Shown: positions 3,651 to 60,532 of the stretch, one piece after another
Position numbering within the stretch: position 1 is the first letter of the stretch
Layout of the letters: each line of letters begins with the position of its first letter
Source of the DNA: Actinomycetota bacterium
Lineage (GTDB): Bacteria; Actinomycetota; Thermoleophilia; RBG-16-64-13
Reading direction: 5' to 3'
DNA length: 64,000 nucleotides
Assembly (NCBI GenBank): GCA_018830645.1
Contig: JAHJSA010000089.1
Span: forward strand, 1 to 64,000
Made by a program: the position numbers and the translations under genes
The notes under the pieces: generated by a model
Seen by the model: the letters and a program-made list of their open reading frames with translations, nothing else
Told to the model about the DNA's origin: nothing
The model's database searches: none

Positions 3651-4673
3651 TCAGAGCCCCAGACCATCCAGCATGCGACCGTCCCGGCGCCAATGCTTGC
3701 GCACCTTGACCACGAGATCGAGGTACACGCGAGAGCCGAGCAGCCACTCGATCTCCTTGCGCGCCTCCACGCCCACCTGTTTGATGACGGCGCCACCTCG
3801 GCCCAATACGATTGGCTTCTGGGAGTCCCGCTCCACGTAGATCGCCGCGCGGATGTAGAGAAGGTCGCTCTCTTCGCGGGGCACCATTTCGAGCACCTCC
3901 ACGGCCAGTGCGTGAGGGATCTCCTCCTCCATGACCGCAATCAGCTTCTCCCGGATGAACTCGGCCGCCAACGCCTCTTCCGGTTGATCGGTGACGACCC
4001 CAGGGGGGAAGTAGCGCGGACCCTCGGGCAGAACGGCCACCAACCGCTCCATGAGTTCCGGCACGCCGTCGCCCTGCAGCGCGCTCACCCTTCGGATTTC
4101 CGCACCCGGCACGAGTTCGGCGATCTCCTCCTCAAGCCGGCCCTGTCGATCTCGAGGCGCCAGATCGCTCTTGTTGACCGCGACCACCTTCGGCACCGAA
4201 GACATGGCAAGTGCCCGCGCGATGAAGCGATCGCCGCGGCCGAGTCGCTCGCCTCCGTCGAGGAGAAAGAGCACAGCATCGACCTCGGAGATGGTCGTCT
4301 CCACCAGATTCTGCATGCGCTGCGTGAGAGCGTCGCGGGGCTTCTGGAAGCCCGGGATGTCGATCAATACCAGCTGGAATGCGTCCCCGGATAGAACACC
4401 GGCCACGCGATGGCGCGTGGTCTGCGGCTTGCTGGCGGTGATGCTCACCTTTCGCCCCAGCGCGCGGTTCACGAGAGTCGACTTCCCTACGTTGGGCCGT
4501 CCCACGAGCGCGACGAACCCGGAGCGGAAGCCCGCGGGAGTGGAGAACGGGTCGTTCACGGGTGGCGGGGAGGTCTCACGTGGCGGGGAGGTCTCACGTG
4601 GCGGGGAGGTCTCACGTGGCGGGGAGGTCTCACGTGGCGGAGAGGTCTCACGTGGCGGAGAGGCGTCAGGCAT
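3651..4673 (-). CDS. era: GTPase Era with repeat-bearing N-terminal extension
   Basis: Era binds the 3' end of 16S rRNA and promotes 30S maturation. The 340-residue product has G1 GRPNVGKST (residues 58-66), the G3 region DIPGF, G4 NKSD, and a C-terminal KH domain with the GRGGAVIKQVG core. The start is ATG 4673, which overlaps the upstream GNAT stop by 8 bp. This start adds about 45 residues before the GTPase domain, mostly a six-residue unit SPPRET repeated five times. Typical Era is about 300 residues, so this tail is extra and likely disordered. Confidence 0.95.
   Translation of the reverse strand: MPDASPPRETSPPRETSPPRETSPPRETSPPRETSPPPVNDPFSTPAGFRSGFVALVGRPNVGKSTLVNRALGRKVSITASKPQTTRHRVAGVLSGDAFQLVLIDIPGFQKPRDALTQRMQNLVETTISEVDAVLFLLDGGERLGRGDRFIARALAMSSVPKVVAVNKSDLAPRDRQGRLEEEIAELVPGAEIRRVSALQGDGVPELMERLVAVLPEGPRYFPPGVVTDQPEEALAAEFIREKLIAVMEEEIPHALAVEVLEMVPREESDLLYIRAAIYVERDSQKPIVLGRGGAVIKQVGVEARKEIEWLLGSRVYLDLVVKVRKHWRRDGRMLDGLGL
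4564..4668 (-). repeat. 18-bp in-frame tandem repeat in era
   Basis: The unit GGCGGGGAGGTCTCACGT (plus strand) is present in four identical copies, a fifth with one change, and a partial sixth. Because 18 is a multiple of three, it encodes SPPRET repeats and keeps frame. Near-identity of the copies suggests recent slippage or expansion. Confidence 0.9.
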
Positions 4674-38900: not shown

Positions 38901-38942
38901 CGAAGATCTCCTATCCCGAAGGGTCGGTTCACAAAGACCGGT

Positions 38943-40794: not shown

Positions 40795-40818
40795 GATGAG
40801 GCCGCGCGGCGCCTCATC
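40795..40818 (-). terminator. Hairpin downstream of prmC
   Basis: A perfect 8-bp stem GATGAGGC/GCCTCATC with an 8-nt loop lies 8 bp after the prmC stop. About 10 nt further a GGGCGCGCCC palindrome is followed by CCCTTTCTGTT. The pair could form a composite terminator. The remaining gap to rpiB has only a possible TATGCT -10. Confidence 0.5.
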
Positions 40819-40826
40819 ATGGCGCC

Positions 40827-41840
40827 TCATCGGTGCGCCTTCTCGAGCACCGCGTGCACGAACCTCTCCTTGCCTGAGAGATCACGTTCCACGACCACGT
40901 TCCCGAAGCCCGCCTCGCTCATGAGTGCCGCCACAGCCGGCGCCTGCGACTCTCCCACCTCCAAGAACAGGGCGCCGCCGGGACGCAACACGGTCGCCGC
41001 CTGAGGCAGTAGACGACGGATCACGTCGAGCCCGTCGTCGCCGGCGAGCAGCGCCCCGCCGGGCTCGTGGTCTTTCACGTCTGGCTCCAGAGCCGCGTAC
41101 TCCGACTCGGACACGTACGGCAGGTTGGCCACGACCGCCAGGAGGCTCCCCTGCGCCACACCCTCCAGCAGATCGCCCCGCCGGAGTTCCACCAGTTCCT
41201 CCAGGGCCAGCGCCGCGCGGTTCTCTCGGGCTACTTCGAGGGCATCCTCCGAGACATCGACAGCGAGCACGCTCGTGCCCGTCTCATGGGCCAGGCTGAG
41301 GGCTATCGCCCCGCTCCCGGTGCCGACGTCTGCGACCACGGGACCGACATCTGGGGGCCGCGCCGGCACGGGGCCGGCACCTGGGGGAGGCGAAGGCGCG
41401 TGCGCGGGATCCGGCACGCGCGCAGGATCCGTGGGCCGCGCCGGCAGATGCGCGGAATCCGTGGGCCGCGCCGGCAGATGCGCCTCGGCACGGAGCCAGC
41501 CCACGACCAGGTCGACGAGTTCCTCGGTCTCGGGTCTGGGTATCAGCACGGCCGGCGACACCCGCAGCGTGAGGTACCGGAACGAAGCCCGTCCCAAGAT
41601 GTAGGCCACCGGCTCGCGCCGCGCGCGGCGGGCGACGAGTTCCCGGTACTCATCCACCTCTTCCGAGGTGAGCGGGCGGTCGTGCTGCGTGTAGAGGTGC
41701 ACTCGACCCACAGCGAGCACCTCCGCGAGGAGCAGCTCAGCGTCGAGGCGAGGCGAAGACGAGCCGCGCTCCGCGAGGTAGCGAGCCGATACCTCCAACA
41801 ACTCCGCGATGTGCCAGGTTCGCATCGAGGCGGAGGCCAC
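40827..41840 (-). CDS. prmC: Release factor glutamine methyltransferase, with repeat linker
   Basis: PrmC methylates the GGQ glutamine of RF1/RF2. The 337-residue protein has the N-terminal helical domain (about 1-95) and the SAM motif VVADVGTGSGAIALSLA. The substrate-binding motif is NLPY where PrmC normally has NPPY. Between the two domains lies a 45-residue Pro/Ala-rich linker with a 10-residue unit AHLPARPTDS repeated, which explains the excess over the usual ~280 residues. GTG 41840 begins 2 bp after prfA; ATG 41825 is an alternative start with better ribosome-site spacing. Confidence 0.92.
   Translation of the reverse strand: MASASMRTWHIAELLEVSARYLAERGSSSPRLDAELLLAEVLAVGRVHLYTQHDRPLTSEEVDEYRELVARRARREPVAYILGRASFRYLTLRVSPAVLIPRPETEELVDLVVGWLRAEAHLPARPTDSAHLPARPTDPARVPDPAHAPSPPPGAGPVPARPPDVGPVVADVGTGSGAIALSLAHETGTSVLAVDVSEDALEVARENRAALALEELVELRRGDLLEGVAQGSLLAVVANLPYVSESEYAALEPDVKDHEPGGALLAGDDGLDVIRRLLPQAATVLRPGGALFLEVGESQAPAVAALMSEAGFGNVVVERDLSGKERFVHAVLEKAHR
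41423..41483 (-). repeat. 30-bp in-frame repeat in the prmC linker
   Basis: GTGGGCCGCGCCGGCAGATG (first 20 bases) plus adjoining bases recurs with 30-bp spacing at 41431 and 41461. It encodes 10-residue units rich in Pro and Ala. The flanking 41340-41422 region is similar but degenerate. Confidence 0.8.
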
Positions 41841-57354: not shown

Positions 57355-58170
57355 TCACACCCCCCACAGACGGCCGACGGAGAGGGCCGCGACGAACCAG
57401 ACGACGAGTGCGACAGAAGCGAGCACATCGCCCGCACCGGCCCTGAGCTCGCGATAGCGGGTCCGACCGACCGCCCCTCGGTAGCAACGGCTCGTCATGG
57501 CCACCGCCAGATCGTCGGCCCGGCGGAAGCTGAGCACGAAGAGGGGCACCACGAGAGGAAGCACCGCGTCCGCCAGCCGGCGGGGATCGCGCACGGAGAG
57601 GTCGGCACCCCGCGCCTTCTGGGCCTTGATGAGATCGTCGAGCTCCCGAAGCAAGGTGGGGATGAAGCGCAGAGCGATGGTCATCATCAGCGCGATCTCG
57701 TGGCTCGGCACGCCCACACGACGGAGCGGGCCGAGAAGCCACTCGATCCCATCCGTGAGCGCAACCGGAGCCGTGGTGAGAGTGAGCGTGGCGCTCGAGA
57801 CGAGCAGTAGCCCCAGCCGCAAGGTGAGGAACCCACCCCGGCTGAGACCCTCTCTCGTGATCGAGAACGGCCCCAGGGCCACCACCGGCTCTCCCGGGAA
57901 GCTGAACGCCTGTATCACGAAGGTGAGAACCAGCAAGAACAGCAGCGGGCGTAGCGAGCGCCACAGGTAGCCGGCGGGCACACCGGCCACCGCCAAAGCG
58001 CCCGCCAACCCGGCGGCGAGCACGCCCACGCCCGCCCACCCCTCGACCGCGAAGAGGGCGACCGCGAAGCCGAGGGTCGCCACCAACTTCGTCCTGGGGT
58101 CGAGCCCGTGAACAGGCGAGCCGCCCGGGATGAACTGACCGATGGGGATAGTGAGCCCCGGGCCGCTCAT
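57355..58170 (-). CDS. ecfT: ECF transporter transmembrane protein EcfT
   Basis: EcfT couples the two ATPases to vitamin-binding S components. The 271-residue protein has about five to six helices and the coupling-helix signatures KAQKARGAD and MTSRCYRG; the second has Cys where ARG motifs usually have Gly or Ala. GLDPRTKLVATLGF near the start is typical. No S component is encoded here, so the module is probably shared (group II). Start ATG 58170 lies in a hairpin fed by two upstream mini-ORFs. Confidence 0.93.
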   Translation of the reverse strand: MSGPGLTIPIGQFIPGGSPVHGLDPRTKLVATLGFAVALFAVEGWAGVGVLAAGLAGALAVAGVPAGYLWRSLRPLLFLLVLTFVIQAFSFPGEPVVALGPFSITREGLSRGGFLTLRLGLLLVSSATLTLTTAPVALTDGIEWLLGPLRRVGVPSHEIALMMTIALRFIPTLLRELDDLIKAQKARGADLSVRDPRRLADAVLPLVVPLFVLSFRRADDLAVAMTSRCYRGAVGRTRYRELRAGAGDVLASVALVVWFVAALSVGRLWGV

Positions 58171-58212
58171 GAGGGGGCGCCCCTCATCAGGGAGCGCCGC
58201 TCATGAGGGGGC
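58162..58212 (-). promoter_or_regulatory. Mini-ORF stop/restart relay between ecfA and ecfT
   Basis: A 17-bp direct repeat (GCCCCCTCATGAGCGGC, minus strand) carries the ecfA stop at one end and the ecfT start at the other, 34 bp apart. In between are two tiny frames. ATG at 58204 overlaps the ecfA stop as ATGA and encodes MSGAP. Its stop overlaps the next ATG as TGATGA, encoding MRGAPS, whose stop overlaps the ecfT ATG as ATGA. A perfect 8-bp stem (58169-58187) also masks the GAGGGG ribosome site. The relay is a reading of the sequence; its use is inferred. Confidence 0.6.
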
Positions 58213-60171
58213 CCTTCTCTCCAGCCACTCGATCAGGCCACTGCCTTCGACCACCGCGTCGGCGGGTCGGGCGCCGAGGCGGCGCGCCACGCGCGCAGCG
58301 AGCGGCGGCCGCAGACCCGCGCGCTCGAGAAGGTCGACGTCCGACAGCACGTGGGCCGAGGGGCCCGTCGCCTCGATGCGTCCCTGCCGCAGAAGGACCA
58401 CTCGGTCGGCAATCTCCGCCACTTCATCCATGTCGTGACTGCTCAGGACGAGGGTACGGGCCCCGAAGGCGCCATCGGCTCGAGCGCGTGAGGCGCCGCC
58501 ATCTTCGGGCATCTCACCCTCGGCGCGCGCACCCTTGGCGCCGCGGGCCGCGGCGCGTCTGCTCGCGGCGCCGCCGGCCGCCCAGACTCCGAGCAACTCC
58601 ATGAGGTGACGCCGAGCCGGCGGATCCAACCCCGCGCCGGGCTCGTCGAGCACCAGCAACCCGGGGTCGAGCGACATGATCCCAGCGAGCGCCACCCTGC
58701 GGCGCTCGCCCATCGAGAGGCCGTGCGGAGCCCGCGGCCCGAACTCCTGCACGTCGAGGCCCACCGCGCTCATGGCCCACTGCACTCGAGCCTCGAGCGC
58801 CCTGCCTTCGACCCCGCGGAGCCGTGGAGCGACGGCGACATCCTCCCACACCGTACCTTTGAAGAGCTGGGCCTCCGGGCGCTGGAAGACCATGCCCACC
58901 TCGCCCGCCATGGGCCGCGCGCCGCCCGACCACTCCCGCACGCCGGCGGTGGGCTTGAGCAACCCAGCGAGGGTCTGGAGGAGCGTGCTCTTGCCCGAGG
59001 CCGTCGCTCCGACGACCGCGGTGATCGATCCTTCCGAGATCACGAGGTCCACGTCCTCCAGGCCTCGACGCTCCAGTGAGGTCCCCCGGTTGTAGACTAC
59101 CGACACACCGCGGAGCGTCACCACCGGCCGCTCCCCGCCGCGCTCCCCATTGGACTCTCCATCGGGCTCCGCGCCGCGCTCTCCACCCGGCCGCAGGCAC
59201 TTTCGCTGCGCCTCCAGCCGGTCGGCCGGTGGGCCCGCGTCCCGGGCTTTCTCGGCTTCGCCGCTCATCGGGTCGCCGGTCGCCGGGGGGGCGCTCCTCG
59301 CATCCCCGACCGCCAAGGGCCTGCTCAGCGCATCGACCAGCTCGTCCTCGGTCAAGGGTGGCTCGGCGCCATCGGCCTCGCCAAGGACCTCCTCGGCGAG
59401 GGCCATCGCCGGTGGCGCGCCCAGTGGCAACCCCGCGAAGGCTCTCCGCGAGAAGAAGTGGCGGGCGACGCCGAGGTACGCTCGTCGCCCACGATCGAGC
59501 GCGAGCAGCCGATCGGCCACGAGAGCCTCGCCCATGTGCTGTGTGATCATGAGCACGGCCACACCTCTTCGCGTGAGGCCGCGCACGAAATCCAGTACCT
59601 CCTCTCGACCGGCGGCGTCGAGCATCGAGGTTGGTTCGTCGAGCACGAGCAACGTGGGCTCGAGCACGAGGACTCCGGCCAGCGCAAGGCGCTGCTTCTG
59701 ACCCCCGGAGAGCAGGTGGGGCTCCGTGCTCTCCTCGCCCGTGAGGCCGACCACCTCGAGCACCTCCGCCACCCTCCGGCGCATCTCTTCGCGAGTCACC
59801 CCCAGGTTCTCGAGGCCGAAGGCCACGTCGTCTTCGACGCTCGCGCCCACGATCTGGTCTTCCGGGTCTTGGAAGAGCAGGCCGACGCGCGAGCGGATGT
59901 CCCAAAGAGAATCGAGGTCGGACGTGCTTCGGCCATCGACGAGCACCTCTCCCGATCCGGGAGCAAGAAGCCCGTTGCACAGGCGCGCAAGGGTGCTCTT
60001 ACCCGAACCGTTGCCCCCCACAAGAGCCAGCAACTCGCCGCGCCCGACCTCGAAGTCGAGCCCGTCCAGCGCAAGAGGCCGGTCGTCCCGATATCGGAAG
60101 GACACCCCCCTAAAGCACAGCGCCGGGACCACGAGGGTCCCGGCGCCGACAGTCTCCTGGGCTATAGTCAC
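58201..60171 (-). CDS. Fused ECF transporter ATPases (EcfA-EcfA')
   Basis: The 656-residue protein contains two complete ABC ATPases in one chain. The first (about 18-240) has GGNGSGKST, FQDPEDQIVGASVEDDVAFG, LSGGQKQR and VLDEPTSMLD. The second (about 345-600) has GATASGKST, FQRPEAQLF, LSMGERRR and VLDEPGAGLD. A charged linker of roughly 80 residues joins them. The second domain carries about 40 extra Ala/Arg/Gly-rich residues between its D-loop and the switch histidine (LSSHD). GTG 60171 with GAGGG upstream sets the start, 10 bp after rplQ. Confidence 0.93.
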   Translation of the reverse strand: MTIAQETVGAGTLVVPALCFRGVSFRYRDDRPLALDGLDFEVGRGELLALVGGNGSGKSTLARLCNGLLAPGSGEVLVDGRSTSDLDSLWDIRSRVGLLFQDPEDQIVGASVEDDVAFGLENLGVTREEMRRRVAEVLEVVGLTGEESTEPHLLSGGQKQRLALAGVLVLEPTLLVLDEPTSMLDAAGREEVLDFVRGLTRRGVAVLMITQHMGEALVADRLLALDRGRRAYLGVARHFFSRRAFAGLPLGAPPAMALAEEVLGEADGAEPPLTEDELVDALSRPLAVGDARSAPPATGDPMSGEAEKARDAGPPADRLEAQRKCLRPGGERGAEPDGESNGERGGERPVVTLRGVSVVYNRGTSLERRGLEDVDLVISEGSITAVVGATASGKSTLLQTLAGLLKPTAGVREWSGGARPMAGEVGMVFQRPEAQLFKGTVWEDVAVAPRLRGVEGRALEARVQWAMSAVGLDVQEFGPRAPHGLSMGERRRVALAGIMSLDPGLLVLDEPGAGLDPPARRHLMELLGVWAAGGAASRRAAARGAKGARAEGEMPEDGGASRARADGAFGARTLVLSSHDMDEVAEIADRVVLLRQGRIEATGPSAHVLSDVDLLERAGLRPPLAARVARRLGARPADAVVEGSGLIEWLERRAPS

Positions 60172-60181
60172 CCGAGCCCTC

Positions 60182-60532
60182 TCAGACGAGCTCCAGATAG
60201 ACCATCTCTGCTGCATCGCCGGCCCGCGGGCCGAGCTTCAGGATGCGCGTGTAGCCACCCTGGCGCTCCGCGTAACGCGGCGCGATGTCGTTGAACAACG
60301 CGTACGAGATCTTCTTGTTCCTCAGCATGCTGATGGCCGTCCGCCTGGAGTGCAGATCGCCGGCCTTGCCCATGGTGATCGCCTTCTCGACAAGGGGCTT
60401 GACCTCTTTGGCTTTCGCCTCGGTGGTCTTCACACGTCCATGCTCGAGCACCGAGCAGGCGAGGTTGGCCAGCATCTGCCGGCGGTGGCTCGGCTGGATG
60501 CCGAACCTCCTCCCTTTCCTCTGATGCCTCAC
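60182..60532 (-). CDS. rplQ: 50S ribosomal protein L17
   Basis: L17 lies by the polypeptide exit tunnel. The 116 residues contain MRHQRKGRRFGIQPSHRRQM, ANLACSVLEHGRVKTTEAKA and the ending GDAAEMVYLELV, all standard. It follows rpoA by one base, closing the ribosomal alpha operon. Confidence 0.98.
   Translation of the reverse strand: MRHQRKGRRFGIQPSHRRQMLANLACSVLEHGRVKTTEAKAKEVKPLVEKAITMGKAGDLHSRRTAISMLRNKKISYALFNDIAPRYAERQGGYTRILKLGPRAGDAAEMVYLELV

Follow-up and report, generated by a model that had tools for sequence, protein, structure and literature searches.

A triplicated 17-bp stop/start junction and its chain of two mini-ORFs between ecfA and ecfT

Why are ecfA and ecfT separated by two mini-ORFs at this locus, and could such a chain carry ribosomes on to ecfT once ecfA has ended? 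We addressed this question in the window, that is, the full 64,000-nt stretch of JAHJSA010000089.1 (positions 1-64,000). Its minus strand encodes an ECF transporter module in which EcfA ABC domains are accompanied by a CbiQ/EcfT family protein (Table 1). Because both ABC domains of EcfA lie on one 671-aa polypeptide, an EcfA:EcfT ratio of 1:1 is expected. The ecfA gene ends in TCATGA (stop at 58203-58201; protein tail RAPS), and ecfT starts with the ATG at 58170. A previous sequence-only reading had placed 34 bp between the two genes; the true gap is 30 nt (58171-58200), while 34 nt fits the ATG-to-ATG distance. The ATGA, TGATGA, and ATGA junctions and both mini-ORFs that it described were found on the minus strand. 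Along the chain, ecfA and MSGAP share 4 nt (ATGA), MSGAP and MRGAPS share 1 nt (TGATG), and MRGAPS and ecfT share 4 nt (ATGA). Set against a stop/start spacing of approximately 10 nt as the criterion, the steps of this relay measure 4, 1, and 4 nt, whereas the ecfA stop and the ecfT start are directly 30 nt apart.

The region that spans the gap and reaches into both genes (58162-58212) consists of exactly three head-to-tail, in-register copies of a 17-bp unit in the order GCCCCCTCATGAGCGGC, GCTCCCTGATGAGGGGC, and GCCCCCTCATGAGCGGC (exact match; TRF 17 x 3.0, score 81), each with a stop/start junction. The direct repeat reported in the sequence-only reading was thus exact, but its less similar middle copy had been overlooked. 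When tandem segments with a score of at least 16 and periods of 10-40 were counted, the window yielded seven segments at the strength of the array, whereas six Markov-shuffled windows yielded none; the array is not there by chance. The 17-bp unit had no exact match in its own genome beyond the three copies of the array, the remaining matches carrying 1-2 mismatches, and its total of 18 matches was no higher than that of the reversed control (35). A dispersed repeat or mobile unit was ruled out, since further exact copies are absent from the genome. An assembly error is unlikely because the divergent middle copy gives unique longer k-mers.

Table 1. Features of the ecfA-ecfT junction in the window
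Feature	Position	Strand	Content	Basis
ecfA	58201..60216	-	671 aa; both ABC ATPase domains on a single chain	ABC_tran in two stretches; ECF_ATPase_1/2 above cut-off
Copy 1 of 17-bp unit	58196..58212	-	identical to copy 3; ecfA stop and mini-ORF 1 ATG	exact match, TRF
Mini-ORF 1	58187..58204	-	MSGAP and stop; 5 codons	sequence
Copy 2 of 17-bp unit (GCTCCCTGATGAGGGGC)	58179..58195	-	14/17 identity (three bases differ); mini-ORF 1 stop, mini-ORF 2 ATG, SD-like GAGGGG of ecfT	sequence match, TRF
Mini-ORF 2	58167..58187	-	MRGAPS and stop; 6 codons	sequence
Predicted 8-bp hairpin	58168..58187	-	ATGAGGGG-CGC-CCCCTCAT	sequence; local folds
Copy 3 of 17-bp unit (GCCCCCTCATGAGCGGC)	58162..58178	-	mini-ORF 2 stop and ecfT ATG	exact match
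ecfT	57355..58170	-	271 aa, CbiQ/EcfT family	CbiQ E 6.9e-45

Comparison with a genome of the same genus (G001, locus L001) indicated how the array came about. The two genomes share approximately 87% DNA identity across the region and 93% identity in EcfT, and G001 carries a single unit (GATCCCTCGTGAGCGGA) with a GTGA overlap of the EcfA stop and EcfT start. The EcfA tail is RDPS in G001 and RAPS in the window, EcfT has SGPGLTIPIGQF in both, and the EcfA end and EcfT start fall on the same aligned residues. As neither boundary has moved, 34 bp must have been gained in the lineage of the window or lost in that of G001; gain is favored because a single 4-nt NTGA overlap is present in the other members of the family whose junction is clear (L083, L084, L085, and L086). 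The array was not found in 298 other genomes of the class. A conserved regulatory element was rejected, since the unit is single-copy in the same genus and the array is absent from the class sample. The array is a recent and local sequence change in which a coupled junction was expanded in tandem by 34 bp. The description of a duplicated coupling junction in the sequence-only reading was right, as the one copy in the same-genus genome and three in the window show directly. Free variation among relatives, which that reading had held would speak against it, was seen in the mini-ORFs; the coupling, in contrast, is kept by family relatives as a 4-nt stop/start overlap. Only two clear small tandem gains relative to G001 were detected in the region, one of them the ecfA-ecfT array. 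Small repeats elsewhere in the window include a 14-bp tandem duplication adjoining a stop codon at 38924 that is not in G001, an imperfect 13-bp tandem repeat (GGCGCCTCATCAG) adjoining another stop codon at 40808-40840, and 5.7 copies of an 18-bp unit at 4562-4663 (98% identity).

The mini-ORFs follow from simple arithmetic. In an ATGA junction, the stop TGA starts one base past the A of the start, and a copy placed at a period of 3n+2 (17 is such a number) puts the copied TGA in frame with the preceding ATG, which then runs into it. A chain of mini-ORFs is thus the outcome whenever an ATGA junction is copied in units of 3n+2 bases, and a separate design is unneeded. The only 1-nt overlap in the chain arises because copy 2 reads TGATGA in place of TCATGA, so that mini-ORF 1 ends one codon sooner. 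At any unit length, a junction duplication leaves both proteins unaltered and changes only the reading-frame relay.

The same geometry was found at the same gene pair in a genome of another family of the class (G057), whose EcfT is 49% identical to that of the window. There, too, a triplicated junction lies between ecfA and ecfT; its periods are 23 and 26, both 3n+2, and the mini-ORFs MKSKGSAP and MKPKGSQAP have ATGA at all boundaries. A genus-mate of G057 (G032) had no such array at ecfA-ecfT, and the triplication in G057 is independent of that in the window. In a further genome (G044, L097), a mini-ORF of about 17-18 codons joins ecfA and ecfT with GTGA at both ends; it was left out of the duplication count, as it has no clear repeat.

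For a base rate, we sampled 1,753 same-strand junctions from eight genomes of the class and Firmicutes loci using a simple gene caller, with which starts are approximate. Among them, 12 duplications spanned the upstream stop, and when the downstream start was ignored, seven had periods of 3n+2, three of 3n, and two of 3n+1, which is not significant. Duplications reaching the downstream start were found at six junctions, five of which kept the full relay: ecfA-ecfT of the window (periods 17 and 17), ecfA-ecfT of G057 (23 and 26), and L151:4888- (35), L154:18191- (38), and L152:10518+ (14 and 17), also of G057. The sixth, L151:5204+ of G057, with steps of 18 and 19, breaks the 3n+2 rule. The binomial probability of five in six under a chance of one third is approximately 0.018, a value that includes the discovery case and draws five of its six cases from G057. 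We did not accept the 3n+2 rule as proven, given five of six from such a sample and 7/12 on the looser criterion; the retention of the relay is a lead rather than a result, suggestive but not decisive. In true gaps, nine relays with two mini-ORFs were counted, compared with 2.1 in shuffles; relays with a single mini-ORF were in mild excess (36 versus 29). A word-pair scan of viral contigs, which extended beyond junctions, gave no 3n+2 excess (12 versus 17 for 3n+1) and was dominated by in-frame peptide repeats (56/85). Taken together, the independent recurrence of this geometry at ecfA-ecfT and the lean toward 3n+2 among other junction duplications argue for more than chance. In G057 (L151, L152, and L154; G057:C6), 398 kb contain at least five stop/start junctions that have been duplicated, a number that no other sampled genome reaches.

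The perfect hairpin that had been proposed to mask the ecfT ribosome site is present as a prediction, with 8-nt arms (ATGAGGGG and CCCCTCAT) and a 3-nt loop that take in both the SD (GAGGGG) and the ATG, and its bases are paired differently in a full-context fold than in local folds. The predicted fold of ecfT from -35 to +35 was -36.6 kcal/mol, which lies at the 2nd percentile of 236 starts from this genome (mean -21.8), and the predicted openness of the ecfT ATG was in the lowest 1.3%. The hairpin results largely from a palindrome within the unit (CTCATGAG), and the G057 array is predicted to fold only weakly (-15.8 kcal/mol), so these arrays do not have the hairpin in common. It is doubtful as an essential part and is probably incidental. 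Among the SD-like sites, the best was that of mini-ORF 1 (-9.9 kcal/mol), which by position is the ecfT site from before the duplication, and that of mini-ORF 2 was poor (-3.1 kcal/mol). The GAGGGG of ecfT lies 9 nt before its ATG, with a duplex energy of -7.3 kcal/mol. According to these predictions, a ribosome on the mini-ORFs would open the fold, while a free 30S subunit would be hindered, which favors the relay.

We consider it the best explanation, with a probability of about 0.6, that slippage triplicated the coupled junction and that the change was tolerated because termination-reinitiation was preserved. On this view, ecfA and ecfT were already coupled when replication slippage turned their 17-bp stop/start junction into three tandem copies and added 34 bp in this lineage. 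With a 3n+2 unit and an NTGA overlap, each copied start would lead into the next copied stop and the 30-nt gap would be bridged; a ribosome leaving ecfA could restart on MSGAP, next on MRGAPS, and next on ecfT. In six native gene pairs of E. coli and H. volcanii, gaps of approximately 20 nt nearly abolish termination-reinitiation (PMC10666635), and a 30-nt gap without the relay is therefore expected to uncouple ecfT, although the distance dependence was weaker in other published work (reviewed in PMC12548453). We infer that ribosomes really use the relay and that selection for ecfT coupling may explain why such duplications would survive mainly at 3n+2 periods. None of the relay steps is likely to be fully efficient, and ecfT output may drop somewhat; a tuned function need not be assumed.

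Against the relay, ecfT has its own SD-like site in copy 2 and might start without it. In a rival account, the triplication would be purely neutral slippage, ecfT would start independently from the GAGGGG as a usable SD, and the relay would be an accident of arithmetic. The other stop-adjoining tandem duplications of the window (38924, with 14 bp, and 40808, with a 13-bp unit) are in keeping with this account, and any junction duplication has a one in three chance of a 3n+2 period. However, a strong predicted structure encloses the SD and ATG of ecfT and would hinder independent starts, and the same geometry recurs independently at the same gene pair in G057. We regard a duplication of no translational consequence as a serious but rather unlikely alternative.

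The proposal in the sequence-only reading that the junction sets the ATPase-to-EcfT ratio would make the mini-ORFs and hairpin a device that sets or senses EcfA:EcfT. Each relay step could split the flow of ribosomes, the predicted fold is among the strongest at starts of this genome, and the differences in copy 2 lie at the positions that create GAGGGG. However, the array is not conserved in the same-genus genome, the mini-ORF chain is already accounted for by the period of the duplication, and the hairpin stems largely from the palindrome and has only a weak counterpart in G057. Ratio tuning is therefore possible but unsupported, and a regulatory device is improbable. Far less credible still is an EcfA-EcfT fusion with the linker AALPDEGRPL, produced by UGA read-through after the 34-bp insertion had framed ecfT with ecfA. 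A UGA is indeed the sole stop between the two frames (58171-58203, minus strand), but the two genes share a frame as a side effect of 34 being 3n+1, and a plain stop is expected to terminate almost all chains.

Whether native operons need reinitiation is still debated between RNA unfolding and ribosome handover. Because these duplications leave the proteins unchanged and affect only the relay, their periods modulo 3 across genomes offer a clean natural test of this need. We tentatively propose that duplications of coupled stop/start junctions form a recurrent bacterial class surviving mainly at 3n+2 periods, in which ecfA-ecfT has been affected at least twice. The period modulo 3 would then be a genome-readable signature of selection for termination-reinitiation that requires no expression data. 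The window gives one clear example, and G057 adds five, four of which keep the relay.

Among known systems, overlapping NTGA and TGATG gene pairs (PMC6728339, PMC10666635, PMC12548453) resemble the array in the ATGA and TGATG overlaps of each step and in encoding subunits of one complex, and a single-copy ecfA-ecfT junction is an ordinary member of this group. In the window, by contrast, 30 nt lie between the ecfA stop and the ecfT start, and the sole connection is through two mini-ORFs made by duplication. The closest known precedent is the mycobacterial interspersed repetitive units (MIRUs), such as that of senX3-regX3, which likewise repeat in tandem between cistrons and contain a small ORF that is coupled to the following gene at -4 spacing; unit lengths of 77 and 53 bp have been reported, and each is 3n+2 (PMC12548453; PMC4213456). 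The array shares with them a tandem intercistronic repeat whose small ORFs overlap at both ends. However, MIRUs are scattered over the genome and presumed mobile, whereas the 17-bp unit derives from the local junction and its only exact matches in the genome are the three array copies; the array is local and is not a MIRU. Short uORFs that deliver ribosomes (uORF coupling, PMC12548453) are similar in that the mini-ORFs would serve only to supply the following start with a ribosome, but here two of them, of 5 and 6 codons, stand in series between two genes of one operon.
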